A stretch of 64,000 nt of DNA from Methanoculleus frigidifontis (GTDB lineage: Archaea; Halobacteriota; Methanomicrobia; Methanomicrobiales; Methanoculleaceae): positions 1 to 64,000 of the forward strand of contig NZ_VCYH01000006.1 of the NCBI RefSeq assembly GCF_030464345.1. Reading direction: 5' to 3'. The position numbers were made by a program, and so were the translations under genes. The notes beneath the pieces were generated by a model. It was not told the DNA's origin. It searched no databases and saw only the letters and a list, made by a program, of their open reading frames with translations. Below, piece by piece: positions 7,350-24,400 of the stretch. Within the stretch, counting starts at the first letter, position 1. Each line of letters opens with the position of its first letter.

Positions 7350-8033
7350 TCAGTACCCGGCCAGGAGGATCGCCATGATCCGTGATTCCGCACGCCGCAG
7401 GTGTTCGATGGCCGTGGCCTTGCTGACGCCGGCCGCCTCCGCGAGCGCGCCGCCGTTCGTCTTCCGCGGATACTCGTAGTATCCGCAGCGTTTCGCGGCA
7501 AGGAGCATGCCGCGCTGTTTCTCGGTCAGCATCCCGAGGATGTCGCGGCCGTCGTAGGTCACCGGCTGGAAGGTGACGTCCAGGATCTCGCCGTAGGACG
7601 CGAGCAGGCCAAGGAACCGCTGCAGGTTTGCATCATCGCCGATGCAGGAGTAGACGACGTGCGTCGGGGATTTTTTGATCGGCGTCGTCCAGATCAGGTC
7701 GAGATCGAACTCCTGCATCTTCTGCCGGAAGAACTCGTCATGCGCCTGGCCGCGGATGAGGCAGGTGTGGACTCTGCCCTGCACCCTGACGACGTGCAGG
7801 ATCTCCATGACTCCCGGGATGGTGATCTCGTCGATGGAGCAGCCGTCCGCGACGGTGATCTCGCAGAGGACGAGCTTGAGCCCCTTCTCGAAGTCCACCT
7901 TCAGGATCTCAAGGAGCGTCACCGACTCGATCTTCTCAAAGACGCGCGTCCACTCCCGCAGTTTCTCCTGCAGCTCCGGCGGGGCATCGGGAACGGTTAC
8001 CCGCGGGCGGATCTCGACGATCAGTTTGCGCAT
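7350..8033 (-). CDS. Bat-type helix-turn-helix transcriptional regulator (HTH_10)
   Basis: The C-terminal 55 residues (LTEKQRGMLLAAKRCGYYEY, then a recognition region with AEAAGVSKATAIEHLRRAE) are the archaeal HTH_10 domain found in bacterio-opsin activator relatives. The N-terminal 165 residues form a sensor region with no membrane segment; it includes paired Cys residues but no recognisable ligand motif. The 227-residue gene is divergent from the ABC cassette and its TATA box (8055-8062) is directly followed upstream by a perfect palindrome at 8065-8080, which fits autoregulation and control of the cassette. What it senses is unknown. Confidence 0.88.
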   Translation of the reverse strand: MRKLIVEIRPRVTVPDAPPELQEKLREWTRVFEKIESVTLLEILKVDFEKGLKLVLCEITVADGCSIDEITIPGVMEILHVVRVQGRVHTCLIRGQAHDEFFRQKMQEFDLDLIWTTPIKKSPTHVVYSCIGDDANLQRFLGLLASYGEILDVTFQPVTYDGRDILGMLTEKQRGMLLAAKRCGYYEYPRKTNGGALAEAAGVSKATAIEHLRRAESRIMAILLAGY

Positions 8034-8064: not shown

Positions 8065-8080
8065 CCCGTACATGTACGGG
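8065..8080. promoter_or_regulatory. Perfect 16-bp palindrome, candidate operator
   Basis: CCCGTACATGTACGGG is its own reverse complement over all 16 bases. It sits between the divergent HTH regulator and the ABC cassette, next to the regulator's TATA box, where bound protein could block or recruit the basal factors. The regulator at 7350-8033 is the natural candidate ligand; this is inference. Confidence 0.6.
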
Positions 8081-8190
8081 GCAATCCTCATGTAGCCGGG
8101 AGAGCAATACTTCGTCTGGAGAGATGACCTCGCCCCCCCGCGTGCAGCCTGCAAAAGGCTATCAGGCGGCAGGACAAGGGGAGGATAGGA

Positions 8191-8211
8191 ATGCAGAGTG
8201 TGATCCGATGA
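8191..8211 (+). other. Six-codon upstream ORF overlapping the start of the surface protein
   Basis: A good GGGGAGGATAGGA site precedes ATG 8191. The frame reads MQSVIR and stops with TGA at 8209-8211, overlapping the ATG at 8208. If the 8208 start is right, this could be a translational coupling device; if 8259 is right, it is chance. Confidence 0.25.
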
Positions 8212-9377
8212 ACGACCAGAAGGGAATACGTAAAACGAGGGGCGGCGGGAGAATCAGGATGGCGATATATGCAATAGTCTGCGCCGTTCTTCTGCTGATC
8301 GCTCCGGCGCTCGCGGCACCGGCGGACGTGACGGTGACGTCGGTCTCTCTCGACCCGGCGGTGCTGATGCGGGGGGACGAAGGGATCCTCACCGTGACCG
8401 TGCAGAATACGGGGCTCGAGCCCGTGCCGATCAGCCGCGCCCGGCTCTACGGCGACGAGGTCGTGGTGCTGAGCGATCCCTACCCCTCGGTCGGGGACAT
8501 CGGTGCCGGGAACACCAAACAGTTCACCTTCACCGTCCGGGCGGACGCCCCCGACGGGACCTACTACCCGCGGTTCGTTCTCGAGTTCCGGGACGACGGC
8601 AGCCTCCGCTACCCGGTCCCGGTGCGGGTGGAGAGCACACCGCTGCAGGCGGCGGTGGTCGATCGGCCCGACACCTTCTCGGAAGGACGGGAGGCGGACG
8701 TTGCGGTCAGGGTCGGCAACCCCCGGTCGACCGCGGTGACCGGCGTCCGGGTCGTCCCGGAGGGTTCCGGGTTTACCGCGATCCCCTCGAGCGCGTTTAT
8801 CGGCACCCTCGCGCCCGACCAGGCGGCGGTGGCGCTCTTCAACATCACTCCGCAGGAGGAGACGAACCTCACGTTCCGCGTGATCTACCAGAACGGCCGG
8901 AACGTCCACGAGACGACCCTGGCGCTGCCGCTTACCCTCGGCGAAGGAAAGATTCGTGCCGATCCCGTCCTGACGGGCATCGAGGTGATACAGGAGGCGG
9001 GCATCTGGCGGGTGACCGGCGACGTGACCAACGCCGGCCTCGAGACGGCGCGGTCGGTGATCGTGACGAGCGCCGCTCCGGCGATGCCGACCGATCCGTT
9101 CCGGGTCTACGTCGTCGGGACGCTCGACCCCGACGACTTTTCGAGCTTCGAGGTGACCTTCGAGACGGCGGGCAATGTCTCGGAGGTGCCGCTCGTGGTC
9201 GAGTACCGTGACGACGACGGCAACCTCTTCACCGAACAGAGCATGGTCGCGCTCGAGAACCGGACGGCAGAGGAGGACGAAGGAGATCTCCCGCTCCTGC
9301 CGATCGTCGTCGCCCTTGTGGTGGTGATCGCGGCCGCGGCCGCCGGCTACTACCTCCTCCGGCGGAGACGCGGATGA
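8208..9377 (+). CDS. Surface-anchored secreted protein with CARDB/S-layer-like domains
   Basis: The roughly 389-residue protein has a signal peptide (MAIYAIVCAVLLLIAPALAA), about 330 extracellular residues made of beta-rich repeats of the CARDB/COG1361 type (for example LTVTVQNTGLEPVPISRARL and WRVTGDVTNAGLETARSV), and a C-terminal membrane helix (LPIVVALVVVIAAAAAGYYL) followed by RRRR. It would sit on the outer face of the cell membrane. The ATG at 8208 is chosen; ATG 8259, just before the signal core and preceded by GGGAGA, is an equally good start. The stop overlaps the ATPase start by 4 bases, so it is part of the transporter cassette, probably as an external partner of the permeases. Confidence 0.85.
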   Translation: MNDQKGIRKTRGGGRIRMAIYAIVCAVLLLIAPALAAPADVTVTSVSLDPAVLMRGDEGILTVTVQNTGLEPVPISRARLYGDEVVVLSDPYPSVGDIGAGNTKQFTFTVRADAPDGTYYPRFVLEFRDDGSLRYPVPVRVESTPLQAAVVDRPDTFSEGREADVAVRVGNPRSTAVTGVRVVPEGSGFTAIPSSAFIGTLAPDQAAVALFNITPQEETNLTFRVIYQNGRNVHETTLALPLTLGEGKIRADPVLTGIEVIQEAGIWRVTGDVTNAGLETARSVIVTSAAPAMPTDPFRVYVVGTLDPDDFSSFEVTFETAGNVSEVPLVVEYRDDDGNLFTEQSMVALENRTAEEDEGDLPLLPIVVALVVVIAAAAAGYYLLRRRRG

Positions 9378-10048
9378 GCGACGAGCCGGTCATCCGGTTC
9401 GACGACGTCTCGAAGGTCTACTCACTCCCCGGCGGGGACGTCGTCGCGCTCGACCACGTCACCCTCACCGTCGAGCCCGGTGAGTTCGTCGCGGTGATGG
9501 GGCCGTCCGGGTCGGGAAAATCGACCCTCCTCAACCTGATGGGCTGCCTGGACGTCCCGACCTCGGGGCGGATCTTCATCAACGGCGAGGAGATCAGCCG
9601 CATGAGCGACGACGTCCTCACCCGGCTCCGCCGCAACCACATCGGGTTTATCTTTCAGCAGTTCAACCTGATCCCGCTCCTCTCGGCGCTCGAGAATGTG
9701 GAGTTTCCGGTCGTCCTGACCGAGCGGCGGGGCGAGAGCCGGGAGCGGGCGATCCGCGTCCTCCGGTCGATGGACCTTGAGGAGGAGCTCTTCTCCCATA
9801 AACCGAGCGAGCTCTCGGGCGGCCAGCAGCAGCGCGTCGCCATCGCCCGGGCGCTTGTCAACGAGCCCGAGCTCCTCCTCTGCGACGAACCGACCGGCAA
9901 CCTGGACACGAAGACCGGGACCGCCATCATGGACCTCCTCCGCCTGGAGAACGGCGAGGGCAAGACTATCGTGATGGTCACCCACGACCCGAAGGTCGCC
10001 GAATACGCTCACCGCCATATCCGGATCGTGGACGGCAGACTGGTATGA
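9374..10048 (+). CDS. ABC transporter ATP-binding protein (MacB/LolD type)
   Basis: A 224-residue nucleotide-binding subunit with Walker A GPSGSGKSTLL, the Q-loop FIFQQFNLIP, signature LSGGQQQRVAIARAL, Walker B LLLCDEPTGNLD and the H-loop VTHD. These features and the length are those of the MacB/LolD group, which drives mechanotransmission rather than substrate passage through a channel. It overlaps the surface-protein gene before it and the first permease after it by 4 bases each (ATGA), so the genes are translationally coupled. It is the only ATPase for three permeases. Confidence 0.96.
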   Translation: MSDEPVIRFDDVSKVYSLPGGDVVALDHVTLTVEPGEFVAVMGPSGSGKSTLLNLMGCLDVPTSGRIFINGEEISRMSDDVLTRLRRNHIGFIFQQFNLIPLLSALENVEFPVVLTERRGESRERAIRVLRSMDLEEELFSHKPSELSGGQQQRVAIARALVNEPELLLCDEPTGNLDTKTGTAIMDLLRLENGEGKTIVMVTHDPKVAEYAHRHIRIVDGRLV

Positions 10049-11247
10049 TATTCTTCAATTTTGCGGTCAGGAATCTCAGGCGCCACTGGATACGCTCGGC
10101 GCTCTCGATCATCGGGATCGTCATCGGCGTGATAGCGATTGCCTCGCTCGGGATTATGGGCAACAGCATCAACCTCCTCGTCGCGAACCTCATCACCGAC
10201 GTCGGCGACACCATTGTGATCACGCCGCATACCCCTTTTGGAGACACCTTCGCGGGTGACCCGCGGACGGCGGTGGACGCCGCGATCCCTGCCCGGCAGG
10301 TGGACGAGATCCGGCGGGCGGCGAGCCCCCATCGGGTGATTCCGGTACTGCAGGGGGCGGACGAGGTGGATTTCGGCGGCGGCGAGAGCGGCTATGCCCA
10401 GGTGATCGGGCTCGACGTCGAGGACATCCCGGTGCTCCTCGAGCTCGAGGGCGGGCAGTACCCGAGGGCGAACCAGCCGGGCGCCCTCGTCGGGACGTAT
10501 CTCGCAGACGAGTACGACATCGCGTCCGGGGCACGGATCACGATCGGGGATGAGGAGATGCGGGTGACCGGCGTCCTGGCGGAACGGGGCTTTGCCTTCG
10601 ACATCAACCCCGACTACGCCATCGTCGTGCCGGCGGACTGGTACCGTGACCACTTCGGCGCGGAGGACGAGTACTCCATGGTCGTCGTCCGGGTCGGCGA
10701 TATCGCCGAGATCGACGCCGTGAAGGATGCGGTGGACAACCAGCTCAACCGCCGCGAGGAGACGGTCGACATCGTCGATTCACGGGATCTTTTAGCGCAG
10801 TACGAGGAGATCTACCAGCAGATAACCGTCTTCCTCCTCGGCATCGGGGGGATCTCCCTGATCGTCGCCGCCGTGAACATCCTCAACGTCATGTACATCT
10901 CGGTGACCGAACGGATCCGCGAGATAGGGATCATGCGGAGCATCGGCGTCCGGCGGCAGGAGGTGCTGCGGCTCTTCCTCTACGAAGCCGCGATCCTCGG
11001 CATCGTCGGGAGCGTCATCGGCGGGGCGTTCAGCGCTGTCGGCGGCTACGTCATCAGCGTCGCCGCGGTCGAGGTCTTCACCGCCGGGACGACCTTCGGC
11101 GAGAACTTCACCGTCTTTGACGCAACGGCCGTCGGGTTCGTCGTTTTCGGGATGCTCTTCGGGATAGGGACGAGCATCGCCGCCGGGTTCTACCCGGCCT
11201 GGAAGGCCGCGCAGCAACTCCCGATCGAGGCGATGCGCCATGACTGA
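10045..11247 (+). CDS. MacB/FtsX-type ABC permease, paralogue 1
   Basis: A 400-residue permease. One transmembrane helix near the N-terminus (SALSIIGIVIGVIAIASLGI) is followed by a large extracellular MacB_PCD-like domain (about 50-255) and three C-terminal helices of the FtsX domain; the coupling segment TERIREIGIMRSIGVRRQEV and the end FYPAWKAAQQLPIEAMRHD are typical. It overlaps the ATPase by 4 bases and the next permease by 8. It probably works with the cassette ATPase on a membrane or surface substrate that I cannot name. Confidence 0.95.
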   Translation: MIFFNFAVRNLRRHWIRSALSIIGIVIGVIAIASLGIMGNSINLLVANLITDVGDTIVITPHTPFGDTFAGDPRTAVDAAIPARQVDEIRRAASPHRVIPVLQGADEVDFGGGESGYAQVIGLDVEDIPVLLELEGGQYPRANQPGALVGTYLADEYDIASGARITIGDEEMRVTGVLAERGFAFDINPDYAIVVPADWYRDHFGAEDEYSMVVVRVGDIAEIDAVKDAVDNQLNRREETVDIVDSRDLLAQYEEIYQQITVFLLGIGGISLIVAAVNILNVMYISVTERIREIGIMRSIGVRRQEVLRLFLYEAAILGIVGSVIGGAFSAVGGYVISVAAVEVFTAGTTFGENFTVFDATAVGFVVFGMLFGIGTSIAAGFYPAWKAAQQLPIEAMRHD

Positions 11248-12454
11248 CGGCTACCGGACGATCCTCGCCAGCCTCGCGGTGCGGAATCTCCGGCGGCACG
11301 CCGTCCGCTCGAGCCTCGCCACGGTCGGGATCGTCATCGGGGTGATCGCGGTCGCCTCGCTCGGGATCATGGGCAGCAGCCTCTCGGCGCTCTTCGGCGG
11401 CCTGGTCTCGGACGTCAGCGACACCGTCCTCGTCACCCCGCACCTCGCGGCGTCCAGCGGCGACCCGTTCGACCCCCGGAACACCCTCGCCTCGCGGCTG
11501 TCGGAGCGGGACGTTGCGGAGATCGAGAAAGCTGTCGGGCAGAACCGGGTCATCCCGATGATCCGGGCTTCGGAACGGGTGACGGTCGGCGATACGGGCG
11601 GGTATACCCAGGTGTACGTGCTGCCGGCGGAGGACATTCCCTTCCTGCTTGAGAAAGAGGCGGGCCTCTATCCGCAGACGACCTCGTCGGGCGTGATGGT
11701 CGGCGCGCTGCTGGCGGACGAGTTCGACCTGCACCCCGGGAGCCGGATCGAGGTCGGAGGCGAGAACGTCCGCGTCGTCGGCATCGCCGCCGAACGGGGA
11801 ATGGGGATCGATATCAACCCCGACTATGCCGTCATCGTCACCGAGGCGTGGTACGCCGGGCGGCACGACGAGCAGGGCTACAGCCAGGTCGTGGTGAAGG
11901 TCGGCGACCTCGACGAGGTCGGGGAGGTGAAGGCCGCCATCGAGCAGCAGCTCAACCGGAGGGAGGAAGAGGTGGACGTCCTGGACTCGCGGGAGATCCT
12001 GGAGATCTACTACGAGACCTCCGACGCCATCAGCGTCTTCCTCATCGGGATCGGTGCGGTATCCCTCTTCGTCGCGAGCGTCAGCATCCTCAACGTGATG
12101 ATCATCTCCGTCACCGAACGGACGCGGGAGATCGGGCTGATGCGGAGCATCGGGGCGGAGAAGCGGGAGGTGATGGTCATGTTCCTCTACGAGAGCCTTA
12201 TTCTCGGCATCGCCGGAAGCGTCGTCGGCGGGCTCGTCAGCGTCGTCGTCGGCTACTACGTCACCGCATCGGTCGCCGGGTTCCTGACCGGGTTCGTCGC
12301 GGCGGACGGGGGGACGGCAATCCTCTCTCCGGCCGCGATCGGCTACATCGTCTTCGGCGTCCTCTTCGGGATCGCCGCGAGCGTCATTGCCGGGCTGTAC
12401 CCTGCCTGGAAGGCGGCGCAGCAGAGCCCGATCGAAGCCCTCCGTTACGAGTGA
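11240..12454 (+). CDS. MacB/FtsX-type ABC permease, paralogue 2
   Basis: A 404-residue paralogue of the preceding permease with the same plan: N-terminal helix (VGIVIGVIAVASLGIMGSS), extracellular domain with the shared segment RGMGIDINPDYAVIV, and three C-terminal helices with TERTREIGLMRSIGAEKREV and YPAWKAAQQSPIEALRYE. Its start lies inside the end of paralogue 1, so the pair is coupled. MacB-type permeases act as dimers, so a heterodimer with a neighbour is possible. Confidence 0.95.
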   Translation: MTDGYRTILASLAVRNLRRHAVRSSLATVGIVIGVIAVASLGIMGSSLSALFGGLVSDVSDTVLVTPHLAASSGDPFDPRNTLASRLSERDVAEIEKAVGQNRVIPMIRASERVTVGDTGGYTQVYVLPAEDIPFLLEKEAGLYPQTTSSGVMVGALLADEFDLHPGSRIEVGGENVRVVGIAAERGMGIDINPDYAVIVTEAWYAGRHDEQGYSQVVVKVGDLDEVGEVKAAIEQQLNRREEEVDVLDSREILEIYYETSDAISVFLIGIGAVSLFVASVSILNVMIISVTERTREIGLMRSIGAEKREVMVMFLYESLILGIAGSVVGGLVSVVVGYYVTASVAGFLTGFVAADGGTAILSPAAIGYIVFGVLFGIAASVIAGLYPAWKAAQQSPIEALRYE

Positions 12455-12509
12455 TCGGCGGCGGAAGGGTTATCCCTCCGGCCGCCCCCTCACCCTTCCG
12501 GAGACCGGC

Positions 12510-13697
12510 ATGATCTTCTTCGACTTCGCCCGGCGGAACATCAGGCTCCACTGGTTCCGGTCGGTCCTTGCGGTCATCGGGATCGTCATCGGGGTGATCG
12601 CGATCGCCTCCCTCGGGATCCTGGGTAACAGCCTCGTCCTCTCGATCACCGAGACGATCTCGGACGTCGGCGACACCGTCATCGTTACCCCGCACACCGG
12701 CGCCGCCGCCGCCGGAAACGGCCCGGGTCCTCCCGGCGGGGGCGCCGTCACGAGCAATACCATCTCGGAGCGGCAGGTCGGGCAGATCGAGCGGGCGGTC
12801 GGCCCGAATACGGTGATCCCCCTCGCGCAGGGCGGTGATGCGATCGCCGTCGGCAGCGAGACGGGGGCGGCGGTGATCTATGCCATGCCGGTCGAAGAGA
12901 TGCCGGCCCTCCTCGATCTTGCGGACGGTATCTACCCACGGAGCACCGGCGGTGCGCTTGCCGGCAGCGCTCTTGCAGCGGAATTCGGCATGCAGCCGGG
13001 AACCCGCGTCCAGGTCGGGAGCAACGCCTCGAATACGCTCCGGGTGGTCGGCGTCATCGAGGAGCGCGGCGTCGGGTTCGACATCAACCCGGACTTTGCC
13101 CTGATTGTTCCGCACGCCTGGTACAGCGATGTCTACGACGAGGAGGAGTACGACCAGGTGATCGTGAAGGTCAGGGACGTCGGCGACATCGACGTGGTGA
13201 AGGCGGCGATCGAGGAGACGCTCAACCGGCGGGAGACCGTCGTCGACGTCCTGGACACGCGGATGATCCTCGAGAGCCTCTTTCAGGTATTCGAGCAGAT
13301 CACCGTCTTCACCCTCGCCATCGGGAGCATATCGCTCGTCGTCGCCGGCGTCTCCATCCTCAACGTCATGATGATGTCGGTCTCGGAGCGGACGCGGGAG
13401 ATCGGGGTGATGCGGAGCATCGGCACCCGGCAGCAGGACGTGCTGCGGATGTTCCTCTACGAAGCCCTGATCCTCGGGCTGATCGGCAGCATCATCGGCG
13501 GGGTGATGAGCATCGGCACCGGTTACCTGGTTAACGCAGTCGTCCTCCAGCGCCCCGAGTTCCTCTTCGTCCCCTCAAGCCTTGTCTACATCCTCTACGG
13601 CATGGGCTTCGGGGTCGCGACGAGCATCGCCTCCGGGATCTATCCGGCCTGGAAAGCCTCGCGTCTCAATCCCATCCAGGCGCTCCGGTTCGAGTAG
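12510..13697 (+). CDS. MacB/FtsX-type ABC permease, paralogue 3
   Basis: A 395-residue permease starting MIFFDFARRNIRLHWFRSVL, nearly the same opening as paralogue 1 (MIFFNFAVRNLRRHWIRSAL), which fixes the ATG at 12510. The extracellular domain carries a Gly/Pro-rich loop (about residues 68-80) and RGVGFDINPDFALIV; the C-terminal FtsX part has SERTREIGVMRSIGTRQQDV and YPAWKASRLNPIQALRFE. A 55-base gap separates it from paralogue 2, so it may have its own ribosome site. A T-run at 13739-13744 follows. Confidence 0.95.
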   Translation: MIFFDFARRNIRLHWFRSVLAVIGIVIGVIAIASLGILGNSLVLSITETISDVGDTVIVTPHTGAAAAGNGPGPPGGGAVTSNTISERQVGQIERAVGPNTVIPLAQGGDAIAVGSETGAAVIYAMPVEEMPALLDLADGIYPRSTGGALAGSALAAEFGMQPGTRVQVGSNASNTLRVVGVIEERGVGFDINPDFALIVPHAWYSDVYDEEEYDQVIVKVRDVGDIDVVKAAIEETLNRRETVVDVLDTRMILESLFQVFEQITVFTLAIGSISLVVAGVSILNVMMMSVSERTREIGVMRSIGTRQQDVLRMFLYEALILGLIGSIIGGVMSIGTGYLVNAVVLQRPEFLFVPSSLVYILYGMGFGVATSIASGIYPAWKASRLNPIQALRFE

Positions 13698-23215: not shown

Positions 23216-24400
23216 ATTTTTCAGTGCCCGGAGTTCCATCAGCATCTTCGGGTTGCGCTTGATCAGTTCCATGATGAGCGTCGAGACCTTAAACTCCTTC
23301 ATATCGATATTGGCGAGTGATGCGGCGAGGGTGTTGAGTTTCGCGTCGTCGAGGGTGACGAAGTAGTCCTTGACCTTATAGTTCCGCTCGATCGTCTTGC
23401 CCATGCGGGAGACGCGCCACGCCTCGTCGTACTTCATCAGCGCGCCGGCGCTGCAGTCTCCGGCGGAGATGCACTCCGACGCGACCTGTCCTGCCATCCT
23501 GCCGGTGAACATCGCGTTGAAGATGCCGCCGCCGGTGATCGGGTCGACGACGCGTGCGGCATCGCCCGCGATCATCAGGCCGTCCGCGACCGTGCACGGC
23601 AGCGGCTTGCAGACCGAGACCCCGCCGACGATGTGCTCGATTACCTTGCCGTCCGGGAAGTTCTCGGCGACGAAGCGGTCGAGGTAATGGCGTGCCCTGC
23701 TGCCGTCCCTGCTCTGTCTGCCCGAGATGCCGATACCGACGTTCGCGGTCCGGTCGCCCTTCGGGAAGACCCAGAGGTAGCCCTCGGGTGCGATATCCCT
23801 GCCGAGGTAAAAGTCGGTCGATTCCGCGTCGATCGGGATATCGGTCATGAGGTACTGGGCGCAGCTCATCATATCGCCGAGGGGCACGGTCGTGTCGAGG
23901 CCGGCCCAGCGCGCGAACTTGGACTCGACGCCGTCAGCGGCGACGACCACGTCCGCCCGGACATCGACGGGCTGGCCGCAGGCGAGGAGGCGGGCACCCT
24001 TCACGGCGCCGTTCTCCATGATGGGAGCGACCGCCCGGGTCTTGACGAAGACGTCGGAGCCTGCCTCCGCGGCGCGCCAGACGAGTTCGCGGTCGAAGAC
24101 CTTCCGGTCGATGACGTAGCCGACCTCGTTGCCGGCCTGGTGCTGCTCCAGTTTGATGGTGTCGCCGCTTGGGGCAATGATCCGGGCGCGCCTGATGTCG
24201 GCGGCGATCCAGCGCTCGTCGGGTTCGATGAAGTCTTTTAAGAGCTCCTTGCCGATCCCCTCCGCACACCGGACCGGCGTGCCGATGGCGGGCCGTTTCT
24301 CGACGAGGCAGGCCGAGAGTCCGGCCTCTGCGGCGGTTCTTGCCGCGAGCGCTCCGGCAGGCCCTCCGCCGACGACGAGAACGTCGTACCTATTCTTCAT
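23204..24400 (-). CDS. Geranylgeranyl reductase family FAD enzyme (archaeal membrane lipid saturation)
   Basis: A 398-residue flavoprotein. It has the FAD motif [19 protein letters not shown], the family segments [11 protein letters not shown] and [18 protein letters not shown], and [20 protein letters not shown] near the middle. Enzymes of this group reduce the geranylgeranyl chains of digeranylgeranylglycerophospholipids in archaea. ATG 24400 is chosen because the glycine-rich motif follows at once. Its first 11 bases overlap the end of the upstream ferredoxin gene, so the two are translationally coupled and the ferredoxin is the likely electron donor, as described for a methanosarcinal homologue pair. 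Confidence 0.94.

Follow-up and report, generated by a model that had tools for sequence, protein, structure and literature searches.

In Halobacterium the Bat regulon (bop, brp, crtB1) has an upstream activator sequence (UAS) with the consensus ACCNNACTAGTTNGG. In our search, the pattern CC-N2-ACTAGT-N2-GG was present upstream of four of 30 haloarchaeal bacteriorhodopsin loci (30 of the loci found); the shuffle mean was 0.23 and none of 500 shuffles reached four. This agrees with the Bat UAS. The bat gene itself is reported to lie within the Bat regulon (PMC1885257), and Bat is described as carrying PAS and GAF sensor domains (PMC11218638).

For the denitrification promoters of Haloferax mediterranei, PMC10062603 and PMC11218638 give the motifs CGAACATGTTCG and CGAATATGTTCG with the consensus semi-palindrome CGAAYATDKTYG, which in the nirp, norp and nosp promoters stands 66-79 nt ahead of the ATG and is considered there in connection with NarO-type bacterioopsin activators. 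According to the same papers, mutations of the nosp motif lowered activity in all cases tried but one, and the motif is thus a positive element (PMC10062603, PMC11218638). They also present NarO of H. volcanii, a regulator of the bacterioopsin-activator type, as the activator of nar and a nitrate-dependent repressor of dms (PMC10062603, PMC11218638). NarO and DmsR are reported to be without PAS, GAF and GAF/HTH-associated domains (PMC11218638). For CsmR, which is discussed beside Lrp/AsnC motifs, activation was inferred from a site that precedes BRE and TATA (PMC13286277).

The regulator considered here is encoded at 7350-8033 on the minus strand of the window, i. e. of the whole 64-kb stretch of DNA that was analysed. 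It is a protein of 227 aa whose C-terminal domain (residues 169-221) matches HTH_10 (Pfam PF04967, E=5e-18; 65.1 bits with a cut-off of 23.1), and its gene is the only HTH_10 gene found in the window genome. Upstream of it, at 8065-8080 (no strand assigned), lies the operator-like perfect palindrome CCCGTACATGTACGGG, fully symmetric over 16 bp. In minus-strand direction, 3 bp separate the palindrome from the TATA-like element TTTATG (8061-8056), and the regulator ATG comes next, at 8033; orthologs have a TTTATA-like sequence at the equivalent place. The distance from TATA to ATG is about 28 bp, and with the two this close the regulator transcript is probably leaderless. Gene calls and Pfam thus bear out the HTH_10 gene and the divergent ABC cassette named in the preliminary description, and the palindrome does lie, as it had stated, directly upstream of the regulator's TATA box.

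The genome to which the window belongs has 3.17 Mb in 30 contigs, the window forming the start of contig C6; in this genome CCCGTACATGTACGGG is the sole match at zero to two mismatches. At three mismatches 18 further places appear, including one at 23956 of the window. The 17 of these that were examined fall inside called genes (14) or in regions called intergenic (three); an adjacent TATA box was absent from all 17, the three intergenic ones included, and no genome-wide regulon of the palindrome emerged from them. The symmetry itself had been described as rare by chance, which was too strong: the window contains four perfect 16-bp palindromes, as against a mean of 2.05 in 20 dinucleotide shuffles (range 0-5). 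Palindromy by itself is not significant, and with four palindromes where about two are expected the case must rest on conservation, not on symmetry. It is the promoter position together with the conservation that raises the palindrome above chance. As a separate observation, the 16-mer CCCGAACCTGAACGGG, counted on either strand, has two copies in the genome, at L207 (G000:C10:89232) and at G000:C5:124624, one of them between two called genes.

A Pfam scan of the regulator returned HTH_10 alone, with no PAS, GAF or other domain before the HTH. In an AlphaFold2 model (mean pLDDT 81.7, pTM 0.70) the N-terminal part is alpha/beta and the C-terminal part an HTH. A Foldseek search with this model gave no match at E 0.001 or better. 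With VIA-align, the N-terminal part matched Ta1207 (Z 8.1, rmsd 3.5, 132 residues aligned) and the C-terminal part sigma-factor region-4 domains (Z up to 7.8). The matches of both parts are middling, and the likeness of the modelled HTH to region 4 may reflect merely a common arrangement.

On the other side of the palindrome, a divergent cassette on the plus strand begins with a CARDB-domain, membrane-anchored protein (8208-9377, with 8124 as alternative start). It continues with an ABC transporter ATPase (9374-10048; Pfam ABC_tran, 8.7e-37), the MacB/FtsX-type permease 1 (10045-11247; MacB_PCD 4.2e-23, FtsX 1.4e-18) and, likewise of MacB/FtsX type, permeases 2 (11240-12454) and 3 (12510-13697), which are 52% and 48% identical to permease 1. 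A single ATPase is thus followed, at 10045-13697, by three tandem permeases of 48-52% identity. From the palindrome to the cassette start at 8208 there are 127 bp; within the window, no TATA belonging to the cassette was recognized close to the palindrome. In the promoter comparison the flank on the cassette side (8081-8093, plus strand), GCAATCCTCATGT, is partly conserved: it reads ACAATCCTCATGT in the sister species and is GAATCTTGAAC-like in another genus.

Because a contig scan with the single regulator protein as query yielded one remote relative only, a genome search was used instead. Of 40 genomes of the family, 17 contain a regulator match with E <= 1e-20. When one mismatch at most is allowed, the 232 genomes of the order hold 17 palindrome sites, spread over 13 genomes, as against six hits of the reversed-pattern control. 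Thirteen of these sites lie just before the regulator gene, two are in called ORFs, and two precede an export cassette where there is no working regulator gene. In all 14 family loci that were measured, the palindrome (with up to two changes) is found 29-33 bp upstream of the regulator start and a TATA-like box stands between site and start codon, i. e. the conserved site belongs to the regulator's own core promoter, as is expected of an autoregulatory operator; the proteins concerned range down to 43% identity. At a fifteenth locus (G028) the 5' part of the regulator gene is lost and the site has one more change. Over the 15 loci the 16 operator columns reach a majority identity of 95%, compared with 62% for the 60-bp upstream flank and 78% for the eight downstream columns that hold the TATA. 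Many sites are imperfectly symmetric, and six of the 15 read CCCGTATATGTACGGG, so perfect symmetry is dispensable; the sites of G026 and G033 have another symmetric form, CCCGTATATATACGGG.

Eight of 20 loci carry a second, imperfect inverted repeat built on the same half-site, some 25-28 bp farther towards the cassette than the operator (flanks L041, L042, L043, L044 and L049-L056 are concerned; an example is CCGTACCGATCGGTATGG in L041). It is possibly a weaker second site, and it is absent from the window.

Elsewhere in the order, homologs of 28-39% identity have CCATACATGTATGG before their start, mostly directly before a TATA-like sequence. Relative to the window form both arms of the site are changed, i. 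e. they have co-varied. The exact 14-mer CCATACATGTATGG occurs at 13 places in the 232 genomes, 12 of them at an HTH_10 gene and one elsewhere (G202), and the control gave one; two further genomes, G128 and G127, have a hybrid, CCATACATGTACGG or CCGTACATGTATGG. Overall, 21 genomes of the order outside the family have a homolog, and in 20 of them at least 12 of 14 positions before the gene match one or the other form; the exception, G156, has no clear site. A comparison of three clades did not pin down residues behind the G-to-A switch in the operator. In a sample of 392 genomes of the phylum, CCRTACATGTAYGG was found at seven places outside the order, none upstream of an HTH_10 gene, which makes the exact site a trait of this lineage. 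One of them (G430, L183:142-155), with CCGTACATGTACGG, stands shortly past the end of an HTH_10-like reading frame at a contig end, and is either chance or a related site.

The neighbour of the regulator is less constant. The preliminary description had named a lack of conservation in related genomes with the same gene pair as what would refute it, and it withstood this check: the palindrome is conserved with the regulator, but the pairing with the ABC cassette is a minority arrangement. Opposite the regulator, most relatives have an RND cassette, and its RND protein passes the HAE3 model TIGR00921 (511.5 bits, cut-off 351.9); in another clade small membrane proteins are divergent from the regulator. 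RND-type loci have a gene for a mechanosensitive-channel-like protein and a TrmB gene close to the regulator. One regulator/RND locus also has a serpin gene nearby (L041:14038-15330; Pfam Serpin, E=4.4e-120), and at other RND-type loci genes of similar size with a like N-terminus occupy the serpin position. The conserved unit is regulator plus operator, with the adjoining exporter varying.

To count operators at cassettes, the 15 regulator sites were turned into a matrix, with which we scored the upstream regions of 59 ABC loci (the best matches, E <= 5.2e-125, weaker ones omitted) and 38 RND loci (fragments and more distant paralogs omitted). A usable upstream stretch existed for 57 ABC and 37 RND loci; one of each kind had none and another ABC locus offered only 68 bp. 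Scores of at least 24 bits were reached at five ABC and 15 RND loci, the next best score being 9.6; the 15 sites that built the matrix were also scored by it, so that their loci are not independent. The five ABC loci belong to the window's genus (G000, G037) and to G003, G009 and G027, and at the window genome's two scanned RND loci the operator is absent. Across the 40 family genomes, HTH_10 is present in 18, a cassette operator (>=24 bits) in 17, and the two coincide in 16 (Fisher p=3.8e-8, without correction for relatedness).

The regulator gene has been lost repeatedly in the family, where the exporters were retained. Among the genomes in which operator and regulator do not go together, G014 keeps the operator next to a regulator remnant that has an internal deletion, and no working copy was found there; G038 has a site with two mismatches at a frameshifted regulator; in G019 an HTH fragment is all that was found, without a site. 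Regulator remnants were noted in G027, G014 and G019 (L044:8328-8543, L155 and L259). In G003 a perfect palindrome precedes an ABC cassette that has no regulator gene, and the regulator is at the RND locus. Conversely, the regulator of G027 is at the ABC locus, and its RND locus keeps a frameshifted remnant with an intact operator, the regulator TATA being lost in an 11-bp gap. G009 has one regulator at each locus. In a tree the regulators from ABC and RND loci intermix, the one from the ABC locus of G027 grouping with those from RND loci with weak support (86/52).

At the ABC locus of G003 and the RND locus of G027 the site therefore stands at a cassette without a working regulator gene beside it. 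The simplest account of these orphan operators would be one regulator acting on both exporters via the same site. Since two genomes keep the operator at a cassette where there is no working regulator gene, the operator probably serves the cassette as well, with the regulator acting in trans. The cassette flanks beyond the operator are partly conserved, so the orphan sites could also be recent relics, and G014 tells us that a site may survive next to a regulator that no longer works.

Taken together, we consider the palindrome to be the operator of the HTH_10 regulator, bound by a dimer and serving autoregulation and most likely exporter control, with a probability of roughly 85%. We prefer this reading because the sequence recurs at the same spot in relatives with the regulator and is missing where the regulator was lost. 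Protein binding, the dimer, autoregulation and control of the cassette are what we infer from comparing sequences. That the palindrome is an operator for the HTH_10 protein was already proposed from the window's letters, and its conservation before the regulator, throughout the family and in co-varied form through the order, largely supports the proposal.

The operator might also serve the regulator's own promoter only, with the divergent ABC or RND genes as bystanders. The site stands before the regulator in every clade whatever the divergent neighbour (ABC, RND or small membrane proteins), the cassette start is 127 bp away, and ABC cassettes located apart from the regulator mostly lack an operator (five of the 57 ABC loci scanned have one). 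Yet two operators persist at cassettes where the regulator gene is absent or dead, in one case with the TATA gone, and this makes a role confined to autoregulation rather unlikely in our view. With the cassette start at this distance and no cassette TATA near the operator, the argument for control of the cassette comes from the two orphan sites and the divergent layout.

Who binds the site is a related question. A TrmB-family protein, whose gene adjoins the regulator in RND-type loci, would be a conceivable binder. TrmB homologs, however, occur in 34 of the 40 family genomes irrespective of the operator, whereas the presence of HTH_10 tracks it; the TrmB homolog of the window genome is on another contig, and the operator core matches haloarchaeal bacterioopsin-activator motifs. 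The TrmB neighbour was rejected as the binder, since its occurrence did not follow that of the operator, and some other regulator in the place of the HTH_10 protein is improbable. Still less probable is an RNA hairpin, either a terminator or a leader element. The sequence could fold into a stem of 6 bp with a CAUG loop, in which the C-to-T change that is common in the regulator sense would leave a G-U pair, but no T-run follows the palindrome in the window and variants like CCCGTACATGAACGGG and CCCGTATATGTACGGT disrupt the stem; moreover, a palindrome upstream of the regulator TATA is outside the regulator transcript, although a transcript in the cassette direction might cross it. Finally, about two perfect 16-bp palindromes are expected in 64 kb by chance, but a functionless one is hardly credible given conservation at a fixed place through the family and the co-varied form through the order.

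On the preferred reading of an HTH_10 operator, a regulator dimer would sit on the palindrome with one monomer on each half-site, CCCGTACA and TGTACGGG. The site is just upstream of the regulator TATA, where TFB would make contact, so that its occupancy would set the transcription of the regulator itself. The export cassette would most likely be controlled as well, both from this site and, in trans, from other copies of it, the target being the MacB-like ABC cassette here and the HAE3-type RND exporter in most relatives. As to the sign of the effect at the regulator promoter, we lean towards activation, by analogy: the related haloarchaeal motif acts positively, and the BRE here contains little A. 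The inference made for CsmR is the same. Repression is the less favoured possibility.

If correct, this gives a base-level prediction for an uncharacterised methanogen regulator and connects it with two families of exporters. With only one HTH_10 gene and, as a rule, one site in each genome, it would be a clean case for distinguishing activation from repression at an archaeal BRE/TATA. It also suggests a readable operator code common to HTH_10 regulators of distant archaea.

How far does the likeness to the described systems go? A search of mostly open-access literature, which is no proof of novelty, did not find the exact site strings or a paper on this regulator, and no link of HAE3 RND or MacB-type ABC exporters to an HTH_10 regulator was found in the papers searched. 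The exporters themselves are of known kinds, the RND relatives passing TIGR00921 and permease 1 having MacB_PCD and FtsX. The Bat UAS is likewise a site of an HTH_10 regulator upstream of TATA, and its skeleton CC-N2-AC-N2-GT-N2-GG is present in the window as CC-GT-AC-AT-GT-AC-GG at 8066-8079, upstream of TTTATG. This shared skeleton supports the HTH_10 protein as the binder. The centre differs, being ACTAGT in the Bat UAS and ACATGT in the window palindrome. Bat targets purple-membrane genes, and its PAS and GAF domains are missing from the window regulator according to Pfam. The window regulator is not Bat proper.

The denitrification motifs CGAACATGTTCG and CGAATATGTTCG, compared with CGTACATGTACG and CGTATATGTACG here, have the ACATGT core and the C/T variation in common. 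They differ by a symmetric A/T swap at positions 3 and 10, and the flanking CC and GG are not part of the published motif. The motif controls denitrification, and its binder in H. mediterranei is not established.

A possible generalization, which we offer tentatively, is that HTH_10 regulators from methanogens to haloarchaea use one operator code, and that in this methanogen family the regulator with its operator is a portable, self-regulating module swapped between two unrelated exporters, MacB-like ABC and HAE3 RND. Exchange of the module would sometimes leave an operator behind, so that one regulator could govern both exporters in trans. The code would consist of an AC-(AT/TA)-GT centre and symmetric, lineage-specific pairs: RT/AY with CC/GG in the sites described here, GA/TC in the denitrification motif, and N2 with CC/GG in the Bat UAS.
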